Source: an uncultured Oscillospiraceae bacterium (lineage in GTDB: Bacteria > Bacillota > Clostridia > Oscillospirales > Oscillospiraceae). From it: a stretch of DNA of 39,347 nt. Position 1 is the first letter of the stretch, and each line of letters opens with the position of its first letter. Of the stretch, positions 6,869 to 39,347 are shown one piece after another. The DNA lies in assembly GCA_944385435.1 (NCBI GenBank), contig CALWXG010000020.1, forward strand, positions 1 to 39,347, given 5' to 3'. A program made the translations under genes and the position numbers. The notes below the pieces were generated by a model. That model worked only from the letters and a program-made list of their open reading frames with translations. It was not told the origin of the DNA and did not search any database.

Positions 6869-7738
6869 TTACAGGGAGCGGAACAGGGAGAAGAGCCAGT
6901 GCAGGGGCAGAAAGCCGATGAGGAAGCTGGCCAGATTGGCGCATACTCCGTACCCGGCCCGCCTGCCCATGGAGTGTTCCCTGAGGCAGGACAGGTAGAC
7001 CGCGGTTTCCACAACCAGGATGATGAGTTCCGGCAGAGTCATCAGCATGAGGTAGTAGGCGAATTGGCCTTGGGCCGAGGACACAATCTGGTTGGAGCAG
7101 AACAGGTGCAGGCCCAGTTGGGTGACCACATTGGTCAGCAGGAAGATCAGCCAGGTGCGCTTTTGCCGGAAGCCGAAGGCCAGCAGGACCAGCCCCTCAA
7201 TGATCAGGGTGGGAACCAGGGTGGAAGAGAGTTGGATCAGATAGTACAGGGCAGCCGGGGTGCGTTCGGTCAGGGTGTTGGTGCTCCAGTCGTACACCAG
7301 CACGGTGTGGAACCGGTTGCGGGTGTAGGGCTGCTCCACGGCCTGAGCTCCCTGGGATGTGGCCACTGCCAGCCGGAAGGTGTCCGGCAGTCCATGATAG
7401 CTGTACACATACTGGCCGGAGGCGTTGGGAGTCAGGTCGCCGAATATGGGGATGCCGCCGGTGCCCGTGAGCAGGGCCAGCTGCCAGCCGTCTCCCTCCA
7501 GGGTGCGCAGGGATGCGATGAGCTGCGGGTCATAGCCTGTCTCGTCCATGGGAAAGAGATTCTGCCCACTGGCCTCATGGAGCAGATCCACATAGCATGC
7601 CCCTTCCGGGGCGTTGACCACTGTGACGGTGAGGTCGGGTTTGGGACCCATGTCCGCATGGGCGGGCAGGACAAGACAGATCAGACACAGTATGACGAGA
7701 GCCAAAATGCGTGCGGGTCTGGAACGATTTCCTTGCAT
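6869..7738 (-). CDS. Membrane protein with N-terminal exported domain (unknown function)
   Basis: A 289-residue protein with a signal peptide (about residues 8-27, ending near AHA-DMGPKPD), then an exported, probably beta-rich region up to about residue 150, then four or five membrane segments in the C-terminal half (for example LIIEGLVLLAFGF and LPELIILVVETAVYL). The MGPKP start of the mature region recurs, as far as I recall, in uncharacterised Clostridia membrane proteins. ATG 7736-7738 has a near-perfect AAGGAGG 6 nt upstream. It is the last of three leftward envelope genes that may share the promoter at 9049-9077. No function can be assigned. Confidence 0.72.
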   Translation of the reverse strand: MQGNRSRPARILALVILCLICLVLPAHADMGPKPDLTVTVVNAPEGACYVDLLHEASGQNLFPMDETGYDPQLIASLRTLEGDGWQLALLTGTGGIPIFGDLTPNASGQYVYSYHGLPDTFRLAVATSQGAQAVEQPYTRNRFHTVLVYDWSTNTLTERTPAALYYLIQLSSTLVPTLIIEGLVLLAFGFRQKRTWLIFLLTNVVTQLGLHLFCSNQIVSSAQGQFAYYLMLMTLPELIILVVETAVYLSCLREHSMGRRAGYGVCANLASFLIGFLPLHWLFSLFRSL

Positions 7739-7851
7739 GATGTCCTCCTTTTCAGCGTGTATCTCCTCCAAAGGGCAAATTTGCAAGCTGCCCCAGGATC
7801 AGCATACCAGAAGATGCCGGAAAAGTCGATGACAGGAGGATGACAAAAAGA

Positions 7852-8298
7852 TTACAATGGGGGAACATCCCGGGGGGAATCGCCGGTGTCCATGCGCCGG
7901 AAGACCAGAATGGCCCTGGCGCTGGGGGTGACAGAGAAGGAGACAAGGGCATAGCCCTCCCCCTCCATCTGGTTGGCGGCCTGAGCCACCCGCTCCGACA
8001 GCGCCTGGGCCTGGGGAGTGTAGGGAATGGACAGGGTGCGGTACGGGGGTATGCCGCCGGGGCCGGTTCCGGCGGGCGGCTGCCTGTGCGGTTCCGGCGG
8101 GCCGGATTCCTCCTCCCAGGGGGTGAGCACGCCGGAGCGCCGCTCCGCCGCAGCCTGATAGCCGGTGATCAGGGCCGCGGCCACGGCCACGGGGATCAAA
8201 ATGGCAAACAGGATTTTCGTGTGCAGCAGGCCGTCCAGGAGCAGTCCGGCCAGGCTGGAGAGCAGGACCAGGAAGAAGGAACCTGCGCCGCGGGACAT
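7852..8298 (-). CDS. Hypothetical membrane protein with C-terminal soluble domain
   Basis: A 148-residue protein with two close hydrophobic segments at about residues 6-24 and 28-46. A Pro/Gly/Glu-rich linker (about 52-82) and a soluble domain of about 60 residues ending in VSFSVTPSARAILVFRR follow. GGAGAT sits 6 nt before the ATG. It lies 58 bp after a lipoprotein gene and 113 bp before another membrane protein, all leftward, suggesting one envelope-related transcript. I recognise no family. Confidence 0.65.
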   Translation of the reverse strand: MSRGAGSFFLVLLSSLAGLLLDGLLHTKILFAILIPVAVAAALITGYQAAAERRSGVLTPWEEESGPPEPHRQPPAGTGPGGIPPYRTLSIPYTPQAQALSERVAQAANQMEGEGYALVSFSVTPSARAILVFRRMDTGDSPRDVPPL

Positions 8299-32768: not shown

Positions 32769-32797
32769 TTGGAAAGAGAAAGAGAGTGACTGGTGCG

Positions 32798-35700
32798 ATG
32801 ACGATGGACGAGCTGTTCCGTCAGCAGGTGGAGGCGCGGGTTCAGGAGCAGTCCGGCCCCGCCCTGATTGTGTGGAAGGGATTTGGCCCGGACCAGATCC
32901 GGTATCTGATAGGGCATCCCAACAGCCTGCTGCGGGGGAACCTGTTGGAGGGGGATTGCCTGAACTGGGGTGAGCTGGAGGCACAGAGGCGAGCCATGCT
33001 GGCGGCGCTGATGGCCTGTCAGGGGCCGATGGTGGCATTTTATGAGGAACTGCTGGTGTTGCAGGACAGTGTGAATGATCTTGCGGGGATTCTCAATCTG
33101 CCCATTGTGGTGGTGGAGAACAACGCCCTGGCCCCATGGACGCCGTCTCTGCTCTCAGAGGATCGCCTGTCCGGCCTGGCCCGGTATCTCCAGGCGGACA
33201 AGAACAGCGAGGATCCGGAAATCAGCCGGCTCTCCACGTATTACAGCGAAGTCAGGGCGCTGGAGGACGGGCGGGCGCTGGTGGCGCCCAGAAGCCTGTA
33301 TGGTGAGCCGGGAATCGTCTTCCGGCCCTTCTGGGAAGAGGCGGAAGCGGAACATGGGGAGGACCGGCCGGAGGACTGCCGGGAAATTGTGCTGGGATCC
33401 CAGCGGGACTGGGCCTGCCGCCTGGATTTGCTGAGCGCTCCGGTACAGCCGGTCCTGCTGCTCAAGCGGGGCAATGCCCCGCTGACAGACAGCGGGAAGG
33501 CGCTGGCGGGCGCGCTGAAAACGCTGGGGGTGGACTGCTGGCTGGAGGATCTGGAGGACTATGAGGAACCCTTCGAGTATGACGACCGGCAGTTTGTCCC
33601 GCTCCTGAGGACCTACTGGGGAGAGCAGGCACAGTTCCGGCCGCTGCTGTTCTACCGGGATCCGGATCGGGGCAAGGAGCTTCAGACCATCTCCCAGGGC
33701 AGCCTGATCGCGGAGATTGCGGACCAGTGTGAGCGGGCGGCGGACGGGGAGGACTACCATGATATCTTCATCACGGCCCCCACCGGGGCGGGGAAATCCG
33801 TCCTGTTTCAGCTTCCCGCCCTGTACCTGCACCAGCGGTATGGCCTGGTGACCATCATTATCTCGCCCCTGATCGCGCTGATGAACGATCAGGTGGAGCA
33901 GCTCACGGCACAGCGGGGGATCCACTGCGCGGCGTGCATCAACTCCTCCCTGTCCATGGACGAGCGCATGGCGCTGATCCGGCAGATTCACGCAGGGGAG
34001 AAATCCCTGATCTATCTGGCACCCGAACTTCTGCTGTCCATGGATCTCAACGCGTTTCTGGGCGGGCGGAAAGTTGGCCTGATGGTGATCGACGAGGCCC
34101 ACACGGTGACCAGCTGGGGCAGGGATTTCCGGTCTGACTACTGGTTTTTGGGGGATTTCCTGGCCAGGACACGGCGGCAGGAGACGCAGTTCCCGGTGCT
34201 CTGCCTGACGGCCACTGCGGTGTACTCCGGACCGGATGATGTGGTCAACGACACCATAGCCGAGCTGGGACTGAACGCGCCCATCGTGCATCTGGGGAAT
34301 GTCCGCCGGGACAACATTGAGTTTGATATCCGCCTGCATGGCGACGAGAAACTGACGGATACCGCGGAACATGTGAAGATGGACCTGGTGCTGCGGGAGA
34401 TGCGGGCGCTGGTGGACCGGGGGGAGAAAACCCTGGCCTATTTTCCCTATCGCAGCCAGGTGGAGACGGCCTACCAGGCCCTGAGCCAGGAGGAGCACCT
34501 GAAAATCCGGCGGTATCACGGCCAACTCAACACCAACGAGCGGCACCTCACGGAGCGGGATTACCGGAATGGACAGGTGCTGGGCCTGTTCTGCACCAAG
34601 GCCTTCGGAATGGGAGTGGACGTGAGTGACATCCGGCATGTGATTCATTTTGCACCCACCGGAACACTGGCGGACTACGTTCAGGAGATTGGCCGTGCGG
34701 CCCGGGAACCGTCGATTCAGGGTACGGCTCACATTGACTTTTACCAGAACGACATGCGGTATGTCCGCTCCCTCAACGGGATCTCGGAGATGCGTCAGTA
34801 TCAGCTGCGGGAGATGATGAAGAAGCTGTGGGAGATCTACGGGAAAAAGCAGCGCCGCAACCTGCTGCTCTCCTCGGAGACCTTTGAATACCTGTTCCCG
34901 GAGAAGGAAGTGGAGAACCGCACGAAAAACGGGCTGCTGCTGTTGGCAAAGGACCTGCGGTACAAATATGGCGGAATTCCTGTCCTGATTGTGCGGCCCC
35001 GGGCCATGCTGTCCAAAAATTATGTAAATATTCCGGATGAGATCCGGGATACGGTGCTGCGCAGGCTGGGGCCCTATGCCAGGGAAGTGGCCGGCCATGA
35101 ACGGCGGGTGGTTGAAAGTATGGGGGAGCGGGGAACCGCCACCGTCATACAGAGCACTGGAAGCACGTTTCTGCTGGATATGGAGGGGATCTGGGAAAAC
35201 CTGTATTCCGATATGCCCTTCGGCATGTTCAAGAAGCAATTCTTTGAGGTGCCGCCGGATCCCAAACATCCCGGCGTCCGGATTTCTCCCCGGGTGCGGA
35301 TTGAACTGAGGTATAAGCGGGATTATGAACAGGTGGAGCAGGAACTGGAGCGTGTGATGGACGCAGTGATCACCGTGTTCGAGCACCACAAGCGGGGGGA
35401 AGTAAAGCAGTTTACCCAGCGGGATTTTGAGGAGGAGCTCCAGGAACAACTGGGGGAGAAAGTGGTTGCCCATGATAAAATTTCACTGCTGCTGGATATC
35501 TTTACTGCCCGCGTGGAAACCAACAGCGCCTTTACGCCGGCGCGCAGTCAGATCAGTGTGCTGCAGAGGCGTAAGCAGGCGGGGCGTGAGGAACCGGGCT
35601 ATCTGGTTATGGGAAGCAACTATCTCAGGACGAAAAGTGCCCTGCAGCGGATGCTGAATTCCTGCAGGCCCCAGAAGGAACTCACCTATGAGGCCTACCG

Positions 35701-36037
35701 CCCCATTCTGAAAGACCGGCCCATTGACGGCATGCCGCTGTTCAAGCTGCTGGAACTGCTGGATCTGGCCAGCTACGAGATCCGGGGAGGAGAGAAGGCA
35801 CAGGTGTTTGTCCGCATCAACGATCCCGGGAAAATCCGGGCTTTGGCCGCCAATGGGACATATCGAAATGTGATTCTTCAGGAGATCCATCGCCGTCACA
35901 AGGCCAGCGAGACGCTGCTTCAGGCGTTCTTCACCACGGAACTGTCCCAACAGGACCGGTGGGAACTGATTGAGGAGTATTTCCTTGGCCACGAGGCGGT
36001 GGTATCCGCGCGGCTGGGCCTGCCGGAAGAGGGCTGA
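32798..36037 (+). CDS. Large RecQ-like superfamily 2 DNA helicase with unassigned N- and C-terminal regions
   Basis: A 1079-residue protein. The helicase core (about residues 310-680) has Walker A APTGAGKS (Lys333), SPLIALMNDQVEQL, motif II DEAH (Asp432) followed by the RecQ-like TSWGRDFR, TATA (motif III), and motif VI as QEIGRAAREP instead of GRAGRDG. The first 300 residues and the last 400 match nothing I know. The four-Cys zinc subdomain and HRDC domain of housekeeping RecQ are not visible. The start is uncertain: ATG 32798 is chosen, with ATG 32804 and GTG 32786 as alternatives and no strong ribosome site. It has its own promoter and borders a tRNA-Trp integration site, so a defence or mobile-element role is possible but unproven. 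Confidence 0.85.
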   Translation: MTMDELFRQQVEARVQEQSGPALIVWKGFGPDQIRYLIGHPNSLLRGNLLEGDCLNWGELEAQRRAMLAALMACQGPMVAFYEELLVLQDSVNDLAGILNLPIVVVENNALAPWTPSLLSEDRLSGLARYLQADKNSEDPEISRLSTYYSEVRALEDGRALVAPRSLYGEPGIVFRPFWEEAEAEHGEDRPEDCREIVLGSQRDWACRLDLLSAPVQPVLLLKRGNAPLTDSGKALAGALKTLGVDCWLEDLEDYEEPFEYDDRQFVPLLRTYWGEQAQFRPLLFYRDPDRGKELQTISQGSLIAEIADQCERAADGEDYHDIFITAPTGAGKSVLFQLPALYLHQRYGLVTIIISPLIALMNDQVEQLTAQRGIHCAACINSSLSMDERMALIRQIHAGEKSLIYLAPELLLSMDLNAFLGGRKVGLMVIDEAHTVTSWGRDFRSDYWFLGDFLARTRRQETQFPVLCLTATAVYSGPDDVVNDTIAELGLNAPIVHLGNVRRDNIEFDIRLHGDEKLTDTAEHVKMDLVLREMRALVDRGEKTLAYFPYRSQVETAYQALSQEEHLKIRRYHGQLNTNERHLTERDYRNGQVLGLFCTKAFGMGVDVSDIRHVIHFAPTGTLADYVQEIGRAAREPSIQGTAHIDFYQNDMRYVRSLNGISEMRQYQLREMMKKLWEIYGKKQRRNLLLSSETFEYLFPEKEVENRTKNGLLLLAKDLRYKYGGIPVLIVRPRAMLSKNYVNIPDEIRDTVLRRLGPYAREVAGHERRVVESMGERGTATVIQSTGSTFLLDMEGIWENLYSDMPFGMFKKQFFEVPPDPKHPGVRISPRVRIELRYKRDYEQVEQELERVMDAVITVFEHHKRGEVKQFTQRDFEEELQEQLGEKVVAHDKISLLLDIFTARVETNSAFTPARSQISVLQRRKQAGREEPGYLVMGSNYLRTKSALQRMLNSCRPQKELTYEAYRPILKDRPIDGMPLFKLLELLDLASYEIRGGEKAQVFVRINDPGKIRALAANGTYRNVILQEIHRRHKASETLLQAFFTTELSQQDRWELIEEYFLGHEAVVSARLGLPEEG

Positions 36038-36071
36038 GACAGCGCTTCTGATACAAGGCAGGATAAAAAAG

Positions 36072-36113
36072 ACAACCGGGGCGCCGCGAATGCAGAAGCG
36101 GCGCCCCGGTTGT
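36072..36113 (-). terminator. Strong hairpin terminator, minus strand
   Basis: A perfect 16-bp stem (36072-36087 with 36098-36113) is followed by TTTTTT on the minus strand. It would stop leftward transcripts from the tRNA-Trp element before they run into the helicase gene, and it is only 34 bp past the helicase stop. Confidence 0.85.
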
Positions 36114-36200
36114 GGCTGGACCTGGAATCTGGTCCACGGTGGTTTGGAATGTGGCAGTATCCTGGGCGGTTTGACAGACAGCTCCCCATACGGTGTGAAA

Positions 36201-36297
36201 CCGCCGAAAAAGCTCCCAAAGCCCCGAAACTCGGAGCTTTGGGAGCTTTTTATGGCAGGGACAGAAGGAATCGGACCTTCAGCACACGGTTTTGGAG
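36201..36297. repeat. att-like direct repeat, distal copy (97 bp)
   Basis: This segment matches 38436-38532 at 95 of 97 positions in direct orientation. It contains a full copy of the tRNA terminator hairpin (36207-36251) plus the 3' half of tRNA-Trp. Identity stops exactly at the 5' edge of the anticodon loop, the usual crossover limit of tRNA-targeting tyrosine integrases. Confidence 0.92.
36253..36297 (-). pseudogene. tRNA-Trp 3'-half fragment
   Basis: 45 nt run from the encoded CCA end through the T-arm to the anticodon loop CTCCAAA. Two changes relative to the intact tRNA-Trp (one in the acceptor strand, one in the T-loop: GGTCC for GGTTC) show it is not under tRNA selection. The 5' half is absent. 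Confidence 0.92.
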
Positions 36298-36381
36298 GGG
36301 ATGTGGGAAAATCGCCGGGCCCCAGGACAGTCCGGCCGTTGTAAGCAGTTGCGGGATTCAAGCGGTCCGCCCCACGGCGGG

Positions 36382-36401
36382 GTGATGCTTTTTTGATGCT
36401 G
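36382..36401 (+). repeat. Left arm-type repeat pair (TGATGCT x2, 11 bp apart)
   Basis: TGATGCT occurs at 36383-36389 and 36394-36400, one helical turn apart, 86 bp inside the left direct repeat. The same pair with the same spacing is near the right end, which suggests integrase arm-binding sites. Confidence 0.5.
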
Positions 36402-36430
36402 TGGGCCGTCTTGGGATAGGCTCTTATACG

Positions 36431-36673
36431 CTATGAGGCAAAGGACGGCCGCACCTCGGACAGCGGAGTGCCCAGACGCAGCGCCCGGTCCCGCTCATAG
36501 GTGACCCGGGTCACTTCCTCAATGAACTGCCGCTCCTTGAGGGACGCGCTGGCCCAGCGCACGTCATACTTCTGACACAGCTGAAAAAAGATATCATAGA
36601 AGCGCTCCTCCTCCGGGTCCTTCCGGCAGTACCACTCCGCGTCGGACACCGGTCGCTTTCCTTTGTTTTCCAC
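36431..36673 (-). CDS. Small hypothetical protein of the tRNA-Trp element
   Basis: An 80-residue, strongly charged, predicted all-helical protein (DPEEERFYDIFFQLCQKYDVRW, then KERQFIEEVTRVTYERDRALRLG). GTG 36671-36673 is chosen because AAGGGGG lies 8 nt upstream; another GTG at 36682 would overlap that site. It begins 21 nt after the stop of the GNAT-like gene, so they form an operon. I do not recognise the family. The size and charge resemble small mobile-element proteins, and no function can be given. Confidence 0.6.
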   Translation of the reverse strand: MENKGKRPVSDAEWYCRKDPEEERFYDIFFQLCQKYDVRWASASLKERQFIEEVTRVTYERDRALRLGTPLSEVRPSFAS

Positions 36674-36694
36674 TGTGTGCACCCCCTTCGTACA

Positions 36695-37207
36695 TTAAAC
36701 CAGATAGGTGAAAAAGATCCGTTTGGCCGCTTCGTCCGCGATCAGATACCGGGGCGCGGACGAGGAAAAAACAGGCAGCCGAATCGCGCCGAACTCCCTC
36801 TCATAATGCCTGGCCAGCTGTGTTGTCTTTGCCTCCAGAACCACGTCCCCGGCAAAGCCGTTGTCAATGGAGAGCTTGATCCCGTAGGCGATCATCAGCC
36901 GACCGATACCGGTGTACCGCGGAGCGCCTCCGTCCAGCGTCGGGTTCGATTCCGGCTGGGCCTCCATGTACACAATGTGGACAACCAAGGCGTGTTTCAG
37001 AAGCTCATAAGCGGCCAGCGCGACCAGCTCATCTCCGACCTTAGCCGCATATCGCTGAAAATTCTCGTCGGACAAATACTCACTGGTCCAGGATGTTTGC
37101 CATGTCGGCTCTTGGCTGGTCAGCCGCGCATCATCCTGTGTCATAGGCTCGATCCTCACAGGGACTTGCCGACCTTCCCGGTCCAATACAAATGGTTGGA
37201 ACCGCAT
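36695..37207 (-). CDS. GNAT-like N-acetyltransferase
   Basis: A 170-residue protein whose C-terminal half has the GNAT pattern: a beta strand and acetyl-CoA-binding turn TGIGRLMIAYGIKLSIDNGF, then DVVLEAKTTQLARHYEREFGAI, where the His-Tyr-x-x-x-(F/G) segment is typical of GNAT motif B. The pyrophosphate loop (Q/R-x-x-G-x-G/A) is only partly kept as RYTGIGRL. ATG 37205-37207 has AGGTGAGG just upstream and lies about 12 nt from the predicted transcription start. It is the first gene of the element's leftward operon. The substrate is unknown; it could be a small molecule or a toxin-type tRNA target. Confidence 0.65.
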   Translation of the reverse strand: MRFQPFVLDREGRQVPVRIEPMTQDDARLTSQEPTWQTSWTSEYLSDENFQRYAAKVGDELVALAAYELLKHALVVHIVYMEAQPESNPTLDGGAPRYTGIGRLMIAYGIKLSIDNGFAGDVVLEAKTTQLARHYEREFGAIRLPVFSSSAPRYLIADEAAKRIFFTYLV

Positions 37208-37225
37208 GCGCCTCACCTCACCGTC

Positions 37226-37254
37226 AGTATACCATGGCGGCACATCTTTTACAA
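37226..37254 (-). promoter_or_regulatory. Promoter of the element's GNAT operon
   Basis: On the minus strand TTGTAA (37249-37254), 17 bp and TATACT (37226-37231) align, with an extended -10 TG. It leaves a leader of only about 12 nt. Confidence 0.75.
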
Positions 37255-37323
37255 CAAGGTCCTTCCAAAATTCGTTCTTTCATCCTCAACGGCCGCATCT
37301 CCCCGCAAGGCAGACAATGCCTG

Positions 37324-37452
37324 CGCCGCCAAAGGCGCGGGTTTTGCCCACCTTCGGGTGGGGCAAGCAGAGCGTTTGGCTTGCCGCAAGCGGCCGCCAA
37401 ACGCTTTTTTGCGGGCAAAAGCCCGCGCCCACTTTGCCGGCCGGAGGCCGGA
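37324..37452. repeat. Hairpin cluster inside the tRNA-Trp element
   Basis: Consecutive inverted repeats include TTGCC..ACC with GGT..GGCAA (about 37343-37366), a 10-bp stem 37371-37380 with 37396-37405 followed by six T, GCGGGC with GCCCGC (37411-37426), and CCGGCC with GGCCGG (about 37437-37452). A 17-mer at 37324-37340 is identical to 28000-28016 in the recA-recX element. The remaining stretch, 37453-38019, has no convincing gene; frames that stay open there have atypical composition and no ribosome sites. Confidence 0.65.
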
Positions 37453-38019
37453 GTACAGAGAGAAAAAATGGGGTTCGGCTCCGGCAGCAAACCGCCGCTG
37501 CGTATCAACTCCTGCCATGCAATACAAAGAAAAAGGGATTTTTTTCCTGGGATTGAACCTCCAGCGCACTTCTCGCCTTGTTTGTCCCTGTGAGCCGCTG
37601 TGTGCCCTCCTTCGGGGAGAGACAGAGTCCCTGCCCCTCCCGGCGGTTCGGGCCGGATTTGGGCCGGTGTTCCGCCGCTGCGGAGGAGTGCCTATTTGGG
37701 GCATCCGCCGCCCCCTGGCCTGTTTTCGGAGGACGAAAAGTATAGCAGGATAAAGGCCGTGGTCGCCGGTGGCGCCTCCGGCCGGTCACTTCGCCCCGCA
37801 GTGCGGGTCGTTACGGGGTTTTGCGGTGTATCAAAAGTGGGGTCAAAATCCGGGCCGTGGCTCCACTTCTGCAGTCACTATCCCCAAACGCCTACTGTCG
37901 CAACAAAAAAACAGGTGTCATCCCCGGTTCAGGCTCGGCTTTATTGGCAGAAAAGAGAAACCAGCCTGTTCTTCCTGCAGCGCCGTCGGCACCGTGTTTT
38001 CCTCGAAAATTGCGGGGCA

Positions 38020-38271
38020 ATGAAACAATGGAAAGACCCTCTCATAGCAAGACATGATATGCCGAATCAAAGAGATCCCTCTCCTCGAGTTTACATCGCT
38101 GTTGACAAAGACTGTTGCCGGCGGGGGTCATCCCAGAAAAAGTGTGAATTGTTTGATAATTCTGCGCCGTGCCCCTGGATATTCTTCTCCTTCTCTGAGA
38201 TCACCGAGCTCTACTATGTGAAGAAGGACACCGGCCGACTGGCCGGGATCACCACCGGATTCGAGCTGTAA
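38020..38271 (+). pseudogene. ORF remnant, C-terminal end of an unknown protein
   Basis: From ATG 38020 the frame gives 83 residues ending LYYVKKDTGRLAGITTGFEL. The last 40 residues look truly protein-like in composition and codon use, whereas the upstream part of the frame looks like non-coding sequence and no ribosome site is visible. I read it as the decayed 3' end of a gene carried by the tRNA-Trp element. It could also be a short real gene. The family is not recognised. Confidence 0.35.
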
Positions 38272-38283
38272 CTCACACAAAAA

Positions 38284-38324
38284 AGCTCTCCCCGAGCCGG
38301 CAAAACACCGGCTCGGGGAGAGCT
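38284..38324 (-). terminator. Strong hairpin terminator, minus strand
   Basis: A perfect 17-bp stem (38284-38300 with 38308-38324) is followed by TTTTTT on the minus strand. It lies just inside the right end of the element and would stop read-through from the tRNA operon. Confidence 0.85.
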
Positions 38325-38326
38325 CG

Positions 38327-38346
38327 TTGATGCTGAAATGATGCTG
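38327..38346 (+). repeat. Right arm-type repeat pair (TGATGCTG x2, 11 bp apart)
   Basis: TGATGCTG starts at 38328 and 38339, 90 bp inside the right direct repeat, mirroring the left pair in sequence and spacing. A further inverted copy (AATGATGCT on the minus strand) is at 38394-38402. Confidence 0.5.
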
Positions 38347-38435
38347 TACCAGACGGAAACAAGGGAACCAGAACGGACCGGATGCTGCGTTTGGAGCATC
38401 ATTCTGGCATCACCCGCGGTCTGGCTGAACCTATC

Positions 38436-38532
38436 CCGCCGAAAAAGCTCCCAAAGCCCCGAAACTCGGAGCTTTGGGAGCTTTTTATGGCAGGGGCAGA
38501 AGGAATCGAACCTTCAGCACACGGTTTTGGAG
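38436..38532. repeat. att-like direct repeat, tRNA-proximal copy (97 bp)
   Basis: This copy forms the 3' half of the intact tRNA-Trp together with its terminator (38442-38486), so it is the copy that keeps the tRNA functional. It matches 36201-36297 at 95 of 97 positions. Confidence 0.92.
38442..38486 (-). terminator. Terminator of the tRNA-Glu-Glu-Trp operon
   Basis: A near-perfect stem AAAAAGCTCCCAAAGC / GCTTTGGGAGCTTTTT with an inner CCGA/TCGG lies immediately after the tRNA-Trp CCA. T-runs on both sides make it bidirectional. Confidence 0.88.
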
Positions 38533-38563
38533 ACCGTTGCTCTTCCAATTGAGCTATACCCCC
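38488..38563 (-). tRNA. tRNA-Trp (anticodon CCA)
   Basis: 76 nt with acceptor stem GGGGGTA/TGCCCCT (G-U pairs at 1-72 and 6-67), anticodon loop CTCCAAA, T-loop GTTCGATTC, discriminator G and encoded CCA. The G1-U72 pair is a little unusual. This tRNA is the integration target of the adjoining element. Confidence 0.96.
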
Positions 38564-38566
38564 GTG

Positions 38567-38642
38567 TGGTGATGCCTGTGGGACTCGAACCCATATTTTC
38601 AGCTTGAGAGGCTGACGTCCTGACCAATTAGACGAAGGCACC
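38567..38642 (-). tRNA. tRNA-Glu (anticodon CTC)
   Basis: 76 nt with acceptor stem GGTGCCT/AGGCATC (one G-U pair), anticodon stem TCAGC/GCTGA, loop CTCTCAA, T-loop GTTCGAGTC and encoded CCA. Three nucleotides separate it from tRNA-Trp. Confidence 0.95.
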
Positions 38643-38645
38643 GGA

Positions 38646-38721
38646 TGGAGATCCGCACCGGATTTGAACCGGTATTACAACCTTGAAAGGGTTGCGTCCT
38701 GACCAGTTAGACGAGCGGACC
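38646..38721 (-). tRNA. tRNA-Glu (anticodon TTC)
   Basis: 76 nt with acceptor stem GGTCCGC/GCGGATC, anticodon stem CAACC/GGTTG, loop CTTTCAA, T-loop GTTCAAATC and encoded CCA. It is the first tRNA of the three-tRNA cluster. I see no promoter directly upstream, so it may be read with the preceding regulator gene. Confidence 0.95.
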
Positions 38722-38725
38722 GCAG

Positions 38726-38743
38726 GCAGGGAAGGTTCCCTGC
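38726..38743 (-). other. Hairpin between the XRE gene and the tRNA cluster
   Basis: GCAGGGAA and TTCCCTGC pair perfectly across a 2-nt loop (so a tight loop of 4-6 nt in practice), directly after the XRE stop. No T-run follows; it may be a processing site ahead of the tRNAs. Confidence 0.4.
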
Positions 38744-38980
38744 TCAGGAAAAGGGCTGTTTGGTGATGATAATATCATCCATGCGGACATGGAGAAGGGA
38801 CGCAAGTGCCAGCAGATTATCCACGGTGGGAAGGGCGGTCCCATTCTGCCACTTATAGATGGCCTGGGGGGAATTGAACCCGAACGCCAGCTGAAGATCA
38901 TGGACAGAAAGGCCCGCGGCCTTCCGCAGATTGCAGATGTTGGCACCCGTCTGCACCAGGTCGATGACCGGAAAAACCAT
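38744..38980 (-). CDS. XRE-family helix-turn-helix regulator
   Basis: A 78-residue protein with one helix-turn-helix domain: ICNLRKAAGLSVHDLQLAFGFNSPQAIYKWQNGTALPTVDNLLALASLLHV, followed by a short DDIIITK tail. The recognition helix is around SPQAIYKWQNG. ATG 38978-38980 has AGGAG about 10 nt upstream; an in-frame TTG at 38989 is too close to that site. It is a minimal Cro/CI-like protein, and a TTTGTGAT inverted repeat upstream is a candidate self-operator. Its position just before the tRNA cluster is unusual. Confidence 0.85.
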   Translation of the reverse strand: MVFPVIDLVQTGANICNLRKAAGLSVHDLQLAFGFNSPQAIYKWQNGTALPTVDNLLALASLLHVRMDDIIITKQPFS

Positions 38981-39004
38981 ATCGATCAAACTCCTATCTG
39001 AATG

Positions 39005-39029
39005 TTTGTGATGCGGTTCAAATCACAAA
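39005..39029. promoter_or_regulatory. Inverted repeat, candidate XRE operator
   Basis: TTTGTGAT (39005-39012) and ATCACAAA (39022-39029) are perfect inverted repeats 9 bp apart, lying 25 bp upstream of the regulator start and just after the terminator of the previous gene. Confidence 0.35.
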
Positions 39030-39059
39030 AAAACCGCTTGCCCCATACAGGACAAGCGG
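39026..39059 (-). terminator. Terminator of the 48-residue small gene
   Basis: CCGCTTG and CAAGCGG (39034-39040 with 39053-39059) form a stem followed on the minus strand by seven T. Confidence 0.85.
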
Positions 39060-39091
39060 CAAAGCATTCAGATGAAGTTTCCAGAATCGAA

Positions 39092-39238
39092 TTAGCTTGG
39101 AATGATTTGGAAACAAGCGTGAATTCTTTCATCCTGCCTATCCTGACATGGGCGCAGTTCAACCAGGCCATGTTCTTCGCGCTGGGAACAAGCCTGCCAT
39201 TTGCCCATATTGATAGAAGCAGAAATGATAGCATTCAT
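39092..39238 (-). CDS. Small hypothetical protein, 48 residues
   Basis: ATG 39236-39238 follows AAAGGAGACTCCGC, an excellent ribosome site. The frame encodes MNAIISASINMGKWQACSQREEH and ends at TAA 39092-39094, 33 bp before a strong terminator. Two Cys lie in the middle and one near the C-terminus, and there is no membrane segment. The combination of ribosome site, frame and terminator supports a real small gene. Other frames over the same stretch lack ribosome sites. Function unknown. Confidence 0.6.
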   Translation of the reverse strand: MNAIISASINMGKWQACSQREEHGLVELRPCQDRQDERIHACFQIIPS

Positions 39239-39302
39239 GCGGAGTCTCCTTTCTAATCGTCGTTTTTTTCGGCTCTTCGTGTGTGATAGTGGAAGGAAAA
39301 TA

Positions 39303-39334
39303 GCCGCAACTCCAGTATTTATGCCGATTGCGGC
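39303..39334. other. Hairpin at the right window edge
   Basis: GCCGCAA (39303-39309) pairs with TTGCGGC (39328-39334). On the minus strand TATTTTCC follows, so it may terminate a gene that lies beyond the window. No gene start is visible in 39239-39347. Confidence 0.4.
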
Positions 39335-39347
39335 CGTTTCAATTTTC

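Follow-up and report, generated by a model that had tools for sequence, protein, structure and literature searches.

How does a 2.2-kb stretch of DNA come to lie between two copies of the 3' half of a tRNA gene when it carries no intact integrase? The question is raised by contig CALWXG010000020.1 of an uncultured Oscillospiraceae bacterium (assembly GCA_944385435.1), of which positions 1 to 39,347 form the window analysed here. Two direct repeats of 97 nt, at 36201-36297 and 38436-38532, agree at 95 of 97 positions (98%) and start 2,235 bp apart. Their mismatches fall at 36261/38496 and 36274/38509, and identity is lost sharply at both ends. The right edge of the repeat corresponds to tRNA position 32, in the anticodon loop, from which the repeat covers the rest of the tRNA, CCA included, and a strong hairpin that has a T run (21-nt arms, 95% complementary, in each copy). 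An initial annotation had described both repeats as a tRNA-Trp 3' half with its terminator and had one copy complete the tRNA gene. The repeats are real and correctly placed, and it is the right copy that contributes to the tRNA-Trp found by ARAGORN. The sites are as follows.

36201-36297: distal attachment site, a displaced tRNA-Trp 3' fragment with terminator, carrying two substitutions.
38436-38532: tRNA-side attachment site, the 97-bp copy with tRNA 3' half and terminator, resembling the sites of relatives.
38488-38563, minus strand: complete tRNA-Trp (cca), found by ARAGORN; Rfam tRNA score 67.2 bits.

DNA searches of the bacterium's own genome located the 97-bp repeat at these two sites only and a single tRNA-Trp locus; the remaining matches were the hairpins on the reverse strand, another element hairpin and one 78% match to a different tRNA. 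Over 36000-39347, only three tRNAs reached the Rfam gathering score, and weaker matches, including sau-19 at both terminators, were taken as chance.

Our data point to an internal deletion. With a probability of about 0.87, the 2,235-bp segment derives by such a deletion from a small element whose tyrosine integrase targets the anticodon loop of tRNA-Trp. Two adjoining pieces of sequence mark the junction.

38126-38185, plus strand: DNA that in relatives precedes a DUF6809-like open reading frame (ORF) and the integrase; left side of the deletion junction.
38188-38268, plus strand: integrase remnant, the last 27 codons (tblastn, E down to 3e-11); right side of the junction.

The remnant is 85-89% identical to the C-termini of 404-aa tyrosine integrases in all nine integrases compared by tblastn. 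The element holds no complete integrase, but with 27-28 residues covered the earlier statement that it contains none is right only for an intact gene and wrong for these C-terminal codons. The left piece has its matches in several relatives directly ahead of the DUF6809-like ORF, which has PF20648 matches below the cut-off and itself precedes the integrase. In close relatives the 404-aa integrase (PF00589) adjoins the same kind of tRNA-Trp site and in most cases ends about 80-125 bp before a pair of arm-like motifs; at the exceptional locus L167 the distance is 1.7 kb. An intact unit is found at locus L171 (6347-10025, 3,679 bp), with ends that match those of the window element. Its order is core, arm pair, small ORF (minus strand), GNAT-like ORF (minus strand), conserved module, 107-aa DUF6809-like ORF, integrase, arm pair, terminator and core. 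The window element has this order minus L171 8137-9614 (about 1,478 bp): window position 38185 aligns to L171 8136, and 38187 to L171 9615. An open frame that crosses the junction (37600-38271, plus strand) and has no Pfam match was, on both grounds, taken to be non-coding. Searches of the assembly detected no intact cognate integrase; the other tyrosine recombinases of the genome that this integrase matched are 26-27% identical to it, over most or part of their length.

The initial annotation had put forward an integrase-less, satellite-like element as possible and had kept internal deletion of a larger island as its conservative alternative, proposing a search for larger integrase-bearing units between such repeats. 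Because the remnant and the intact L171 counterpart together make internal deletion the most likely origin, the alternative gains what the headline loses.

The ends of the element also resemble those of its relatives.

36298-36311: element end, GGGATGTGGGAAAA, adjoining the core; by eye it resembles the element ends of relatives.
36383-36399, plus strand: TGATGC-N5-TGATGC pair, probable arm site, 130 bp past position 36253, where the 45-nt core starts; the same distance holds at most sites of relatives.
38328-38344, plus strand: TGATGC-N5-TGATGC pair, probable arm site, 160 bp ahead of position 38488, the core start (close relatives: 161-162 bp).
38396-38412, minus strand: inverted pair, probable arm site, 92 bp ahead of the core start (relatives that show this pair: 94 bp).

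These are the only three such pairs in the 39-kb window, and none of 300 order-2 Markov shuffles contained any. In close relatives, for which one hexamer was allowed to read TGGTGC, a pair precedes the core start by about 162 bp, an inverted one (in a subset) precedes it by 94 bp, and another follows at 130 bp; more distant relatives often lack pairs under the strict pattern. The paired motifs are probably the arm sites of the tyrosine integrase. Together with the cognate integrase family and the single-copy tRNA-Trp of relatives, they support the tyrosine-integrase insertion in tRNA-Trp that had been proposed initially.

In the history that we propose, the parent element would have inserted at the anticodon loop by means of its tyrosine integrase, the 3' half at its tRNA side keeping the tRNA-Trp gene whole. 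A single deletion would have removed the start region and all of the DUF6809-like ORF together with about codons 1-376 of the integrase, sparing both attachment sites, the arm sites, a candidate origin of transfer (oriT) and the cargo. The derivative would be unable to excise alone and would be copied along with the chromosome. With recombination sites that look intact, it could probably be moved by the integrase of a related element and not otherwise, either in trans or in cis after the relative has integrated alongside, the route described for cis-mobilizable elements (CIMEs).

The integrase search in named genomes returned 65 loci, of which L221 (22% identical) and L222 (17 residues) are negligible. 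Judging by their titles, most belong to metagenome-assembled genomes of Oscillospiraceae and other Clostridia, and some apparently to isolates (Acutalibacter, Neglectibacter, D16-76). Relatives carry tandem arrays of these units, a few with a decayed integrase or none. Whole or partial matches to the attachment region number four in genome G025 (including the functional tRNA), 13 in G027 and six each in G028 and G032, and 16 of 20 stretches fetched from these four genomes contain the 45-nt core, often several times in a row. The 13 matches of G027 are spread over contigs C13, C34, C7, C10 and others (L044-L051, L127-L129); several of them lie at contig ends, which suggests tandem arrays broken by assembly. 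At two further loci (L037 2501-7369 and L172 4670-7355), the arm and terminator half either lies apart from the tRNA core (in L037 at a distance of about 4.5 kb) or has a disrupted core after it, as if other insertions had hit the attachment site.

A survey of 27 chosen contigs or loci yielded 18 units with both cores. The integrase match is full-length in 14 of them, partial in two (the window element and L185) and absent from two, both at L195. Broken integrase copies also occur elsewhere (L045, L186, L214, L215 and L220 among others). The L195 units (1194-2256 and 6915-7976; 1,063 and 1,062 bp) are 88% identical, core-flanked and retain the conserved module; one abuts tRNA-Trp. Neither holds an integrase or an evident gene, the longest ORFs wholly within them in a mechanical listing being 105 and 107 aa. 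At L176, beside a tRNA-Trp-Met-Asn cluster, an integrase of 82% identity is accompanied by a NikA-like gene (PF21983, E 1.8e-19) and a relaxase gene (PF03432, E 2.7e-37), so that part of the family resembles integrative mobilizable elements (IMEs). Apart from its integrase, the 3.7-kb L171 unit has no ORF of relaxase size. Against PHROGs profiles the integrase matches families of integrases (best E 5.5e-42), something that may apply to tyrosine recombinases in general. In viral contigs, 103 stretches matched two short peptide patterns, and no integrase relative was confirmed among them.

The module shared by these units is present in 13 of the 18 with both cores.

37587-37900: conserved module, candidate oriT, with the GCAGGATAAAG box at 37745-37755 and inverted repeats within 37756-37823.

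Similarity to window 37587-37958 was found in several family genomes, and a 42-row alignment of the module shows a GCAGGATAAAG-type box followed by two inverted repeats. The reversed box (TATCCTGC) is one that we take to resemble the nick sites of other relaxases. In 9 of 40 rows examined, a small ORF starts 32-46 bp past the module, and in L241 the ORF overlaps it. Our reading of these small ORFs is that they encode ribbon-helix-helix proteins; the three tested gave no meaningful Pfam match. The large ORFs downstream of the module match MobL (PF18555) in all four cases tested (L223, L235, L238, L241). As a check outside the profile, four contigs that had not contributed to it were taken from ten MobL matches (L244-L247), and all four carry the module upstream in the same orientation. 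A model search, in which 150 of 2,004 first-look candidates from six genomes were scored, listed copies in five genomes and none in G018. For the bacterium's own genome it listed two, that of the window element and C118:955-1043 (L244). The latter lies 1.35 kb ahead of an open 492-aa MobL frame, the one MobL gene detected in the genome; other ORFs intervene, the first starting 41 bp after the module. Two ORFs in this interval (L244 1653-2328) resemble, by eye, a nucleotidyltransferase and a HEPN-like partner.

The module with its inverted repeats is a candidate MobL-type oriT. RNAalifold retains the second inverted repeat (seven pairs, four of them changed on both sides) and drops the first, which counts against the module as a hairpin structure. 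Across the 42 rows, the longest perfect stem of the first repeat averages 5.90, compared with 4.12 in composition shuffles. In the window copy it is 5 (p 0.455), which speaks against a hairpin, as does the folding of the window's module stretch as DNA (z -2.06, with 8 of 200 shuffles equally good). The module also precedes tyrosine recombinases with no relaxase ORF between, a further point against its being an oriT.

The remainder of the interior is cargo. What had been called a small operon consists of two ORFs on the minus strand.

36431-36682, minus strand: 83-aa cargo ORF, without family match in Pfam, PHROGs or PADLOC.
36695-37243, minus strand: 182-aa cargo ORF, probable GNAT acetyltransferase; the window copy is without match in Pfam, PHROGs or PADLOC.

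Neither ORF has a Pfam match to E 1 or a PHROGs match to E 0.01, and PADLOC returned nothing for the two or for two counterparts. Homologues of the 83-aa ORF are 72-74% identical in two family genomes and 22% identical in L171. The 182-aa ORF is 42% identical over 153 aa to its L171 homologue, which matches PF00583 below the curated cut-off. Beside the cargo, a 96-bp stretch (37340-37435) is 92% identical to a site in another family genome (L061) and is perhaps a dispersed repeat.

The surroundings of the element were compared with 42 genomes of the genus and 300 of the family, the bacterium's own included in both. Some match to the tRNA-Trp region occurs in 23 of the genus genomes. Thirteen loci (L008-L020) hold a single tRNA-Trp, directly followed by tRNA-Asp and tRNA-Thr, and their genomes lack a second copy save for weaker matches (69-78%) taken for other tRNAs. 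The tRNA-Trp of this Asn-Met-Trp-Asp-Thr type differs from the window's gene. A fourteenth genus locus with tRNA-Trp in its cluster, in G025, has an array of integrase-bearing units. The window type of locus is seen in the family genomes G080 and G193, where tRNA-Glu and tRNA-Trp are followed after 4 bp by tRNA-Gln and tRNA-Tyr. An empty site with the same flanks was found neither among the 42 genus genomes nor among the 300 family genomes, 24 of which match the right flank; G080 and G193 come nearest. On the left, a 1,083-aa RecQ-like helicase (32786-36037) has recA, recX and a MiaB-like gene to one side of it and the distal repeat to the other. Its best genus homologues are 51-58% identical, and in the four relatives' loci scanned no tRNA adjoins it, so that left-flank synteny yielded no empty site. 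Near the right end of the window, 39267-39344 is 99% identical to G000:C22:37302-37380, a repeat that may have ended the contig.

Some of these observations weigh against a simple insertion followed by one deletion. The window lacks tRNA-Gln and tRNA-Tyr after its tRNA-Trp, and a search of the assembly found another tRNA-Gln only and not the pair. With the Gln-Tyr of G080 and G193 missing here, the tRNA side looks ancestral and the distal flank changed, which implies that more than one insertion and one deletion took place. The comparison from which the deletion is deduced involves a counterpart (61-91% identity in the aligned pieces) rather than a sister strain with the same flanks. With the assembly 94% complete and in 134 contigs, a helper integrase may have escaped assembly. 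A local duplication of the tRNA 3' end that involved no site-specific integration would account for copies identical at 95 of 97 positions, and no one-copy sister strain occurs among the genomes compared. We nevertheless rejected it as highly improbable in view of the arm motifs, the element-end sequence, the integrase remnant and the matching units in relatives, and because 13 of the 14 genus tRNA-Trp loci have no second copy and the fourteenth is the integrase-bearing array. The initial annotation had held that insertion would be refuted by relatives that carry both repeats without the element, or by a duplicated fragment present throughout the genus; neither was seen in the material examined, a comparison that lacked a close relative with the same flanks.

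Given an internal deletion, the present state of the segment can be read in two ways. The attachment sites may no longer work and the segment may be plainly chromosomal, a doubtful but not negligible prospect that is compatible with the deletion. The loss of the integrase, the two substitutions in the distal copy and the rearranged distal flank are in keeping with such decay, whereas arm motifs are intact at three places, both cargo ORFs are open, and the crossover end of the repeat is 24 and 37 bp away from the two substitutions. The opposite proposal makes a further claim about the deletion derivative, namely that attachment sites, arm sites and oriT are under selection for hitch-hiking, with a relative's integrase and MobL providing movement. 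In its favour, neither the module nor any of the three arm pairs looks damaged, the genome has one MobL match with the same module upstream, and the integrase-less L195 units (1.06 kb) keep the module. We consider it unlikely all the same: the assembly shows no cognate integrase, the genome holds no second copy of the element, the distal repeat has its two substitutions, and a 27-codon remnant still 85-89% identical suggests that the deletion happened recently, not that a long satellite history followed it. More broadly, and rather speculatively, the window element and the L195 units might be minimal satellites that consist of tRNA-Trp attachment sites with arm motifs and a MobL-type oriT, with or without cargo. 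It is similarly a long shot that they owe their excision to the integrase of a relative and their transfer to a resident MobL relaxase, as hitch-hikers of integrative mobilizable elements comparable to miniature inverted-repeat transposable elements.

As a deletion derivative, the window element can be compared with known systems. CIMEs are derivatives of integrative and conjugative elements (ICEs) or IMEs that have lost recombination and transfer genes and kept their attachment sites (PMC5704250, PMC7563491). In Streptococcus salivarius, classical CIMEs measure 1.2-13 kb, and micro-CIMEs of 130-220 bp contain no gene (PMC7563491, PMC5704250). Like these, the window element keeps attL and attR, lacks recombination and transfer genes and carries few cargo genes. 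It is bounded by sites of its family, with repeats, arm motifs and end sequence resembling those of relatives; the 27-codon remnant and L171 point to an integrase-bearing ancestor; and no functional integrase or transfer gene lies inside. The tandem arrays of relatives are compatible with accretion of a CIME and an incoming ICE or IME. Unlike the S. salivarius CIMEs, it targets the anticodon loop of tRNA-Trp in an Oscillospiraceae relative, and it stands alone, while the S. salivarius study could detect CIMEs only in tandem. It would appear to work like a CIME and is best filed as one, leaving aside whether its parent was an ICE or IME; it seems to fit most of the published definition, the closest intact counterpart, L171, having no relaxase.

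Other systems share part of this organization. In Dehalococcoides, 15 ssrA islands without an integration module lie between RNA-gene 3'-end repeats, beside islands with the module (PMC3146451). The window element is likewise integrase-less between RNA-gene 3'-end repeats, but those islands involve serine recombinases and ssrA in place of a tyrosine integrase and tRNA-Trp. As in iOriT-type integrative mobilizable elements (defined in PMC11389934), a candidate oriT, here a module linked to MobL genes, is present without a relaxase gene; unlike them, the window element has lost its integrase too, and its oriT is predicted. On plasmid pLS20, oriT lies upstream of ribbon-helix-helix auxiliary genes and the MOBL relaxase gene, and the nick is beside an inverted repeat, on the template strand (PMC5313138, PMC5675868). 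The layout of the module, a predicted oriT, resembles this one, although the published pLS20 nick sequence differs from its box. The complete integrase of an autonomous IME or mobile genomic island is lacking, and nothing indicates a phage satellite: the cargo has no Pfam or PHROGs match at the thresholds given, and the two peptide patterns confirmed no integrase relative in viral contigs. In the literature covered, mostly outside subscription journals, no title was recognised for this tRNA-Trp family or for an Oscillospiraceae MobL oriT.

The kind of element is ordinary and already known in other bacteria; the array-forming family and the candidate oriT are of more interest. A previously unexplained repeat pair becomes a defined deletion derivative whose missing enzyme can be identified, so that movement in trans or in cis is directly testable. 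The locus also draws attention to tRNA-Trp elements of one family, stacked in arrays in Oscillospiraceae and other Clostridia, and a candidate MobL oriT would help to spot relaxase-less mobilizable DNA in these little-studied bacteria.

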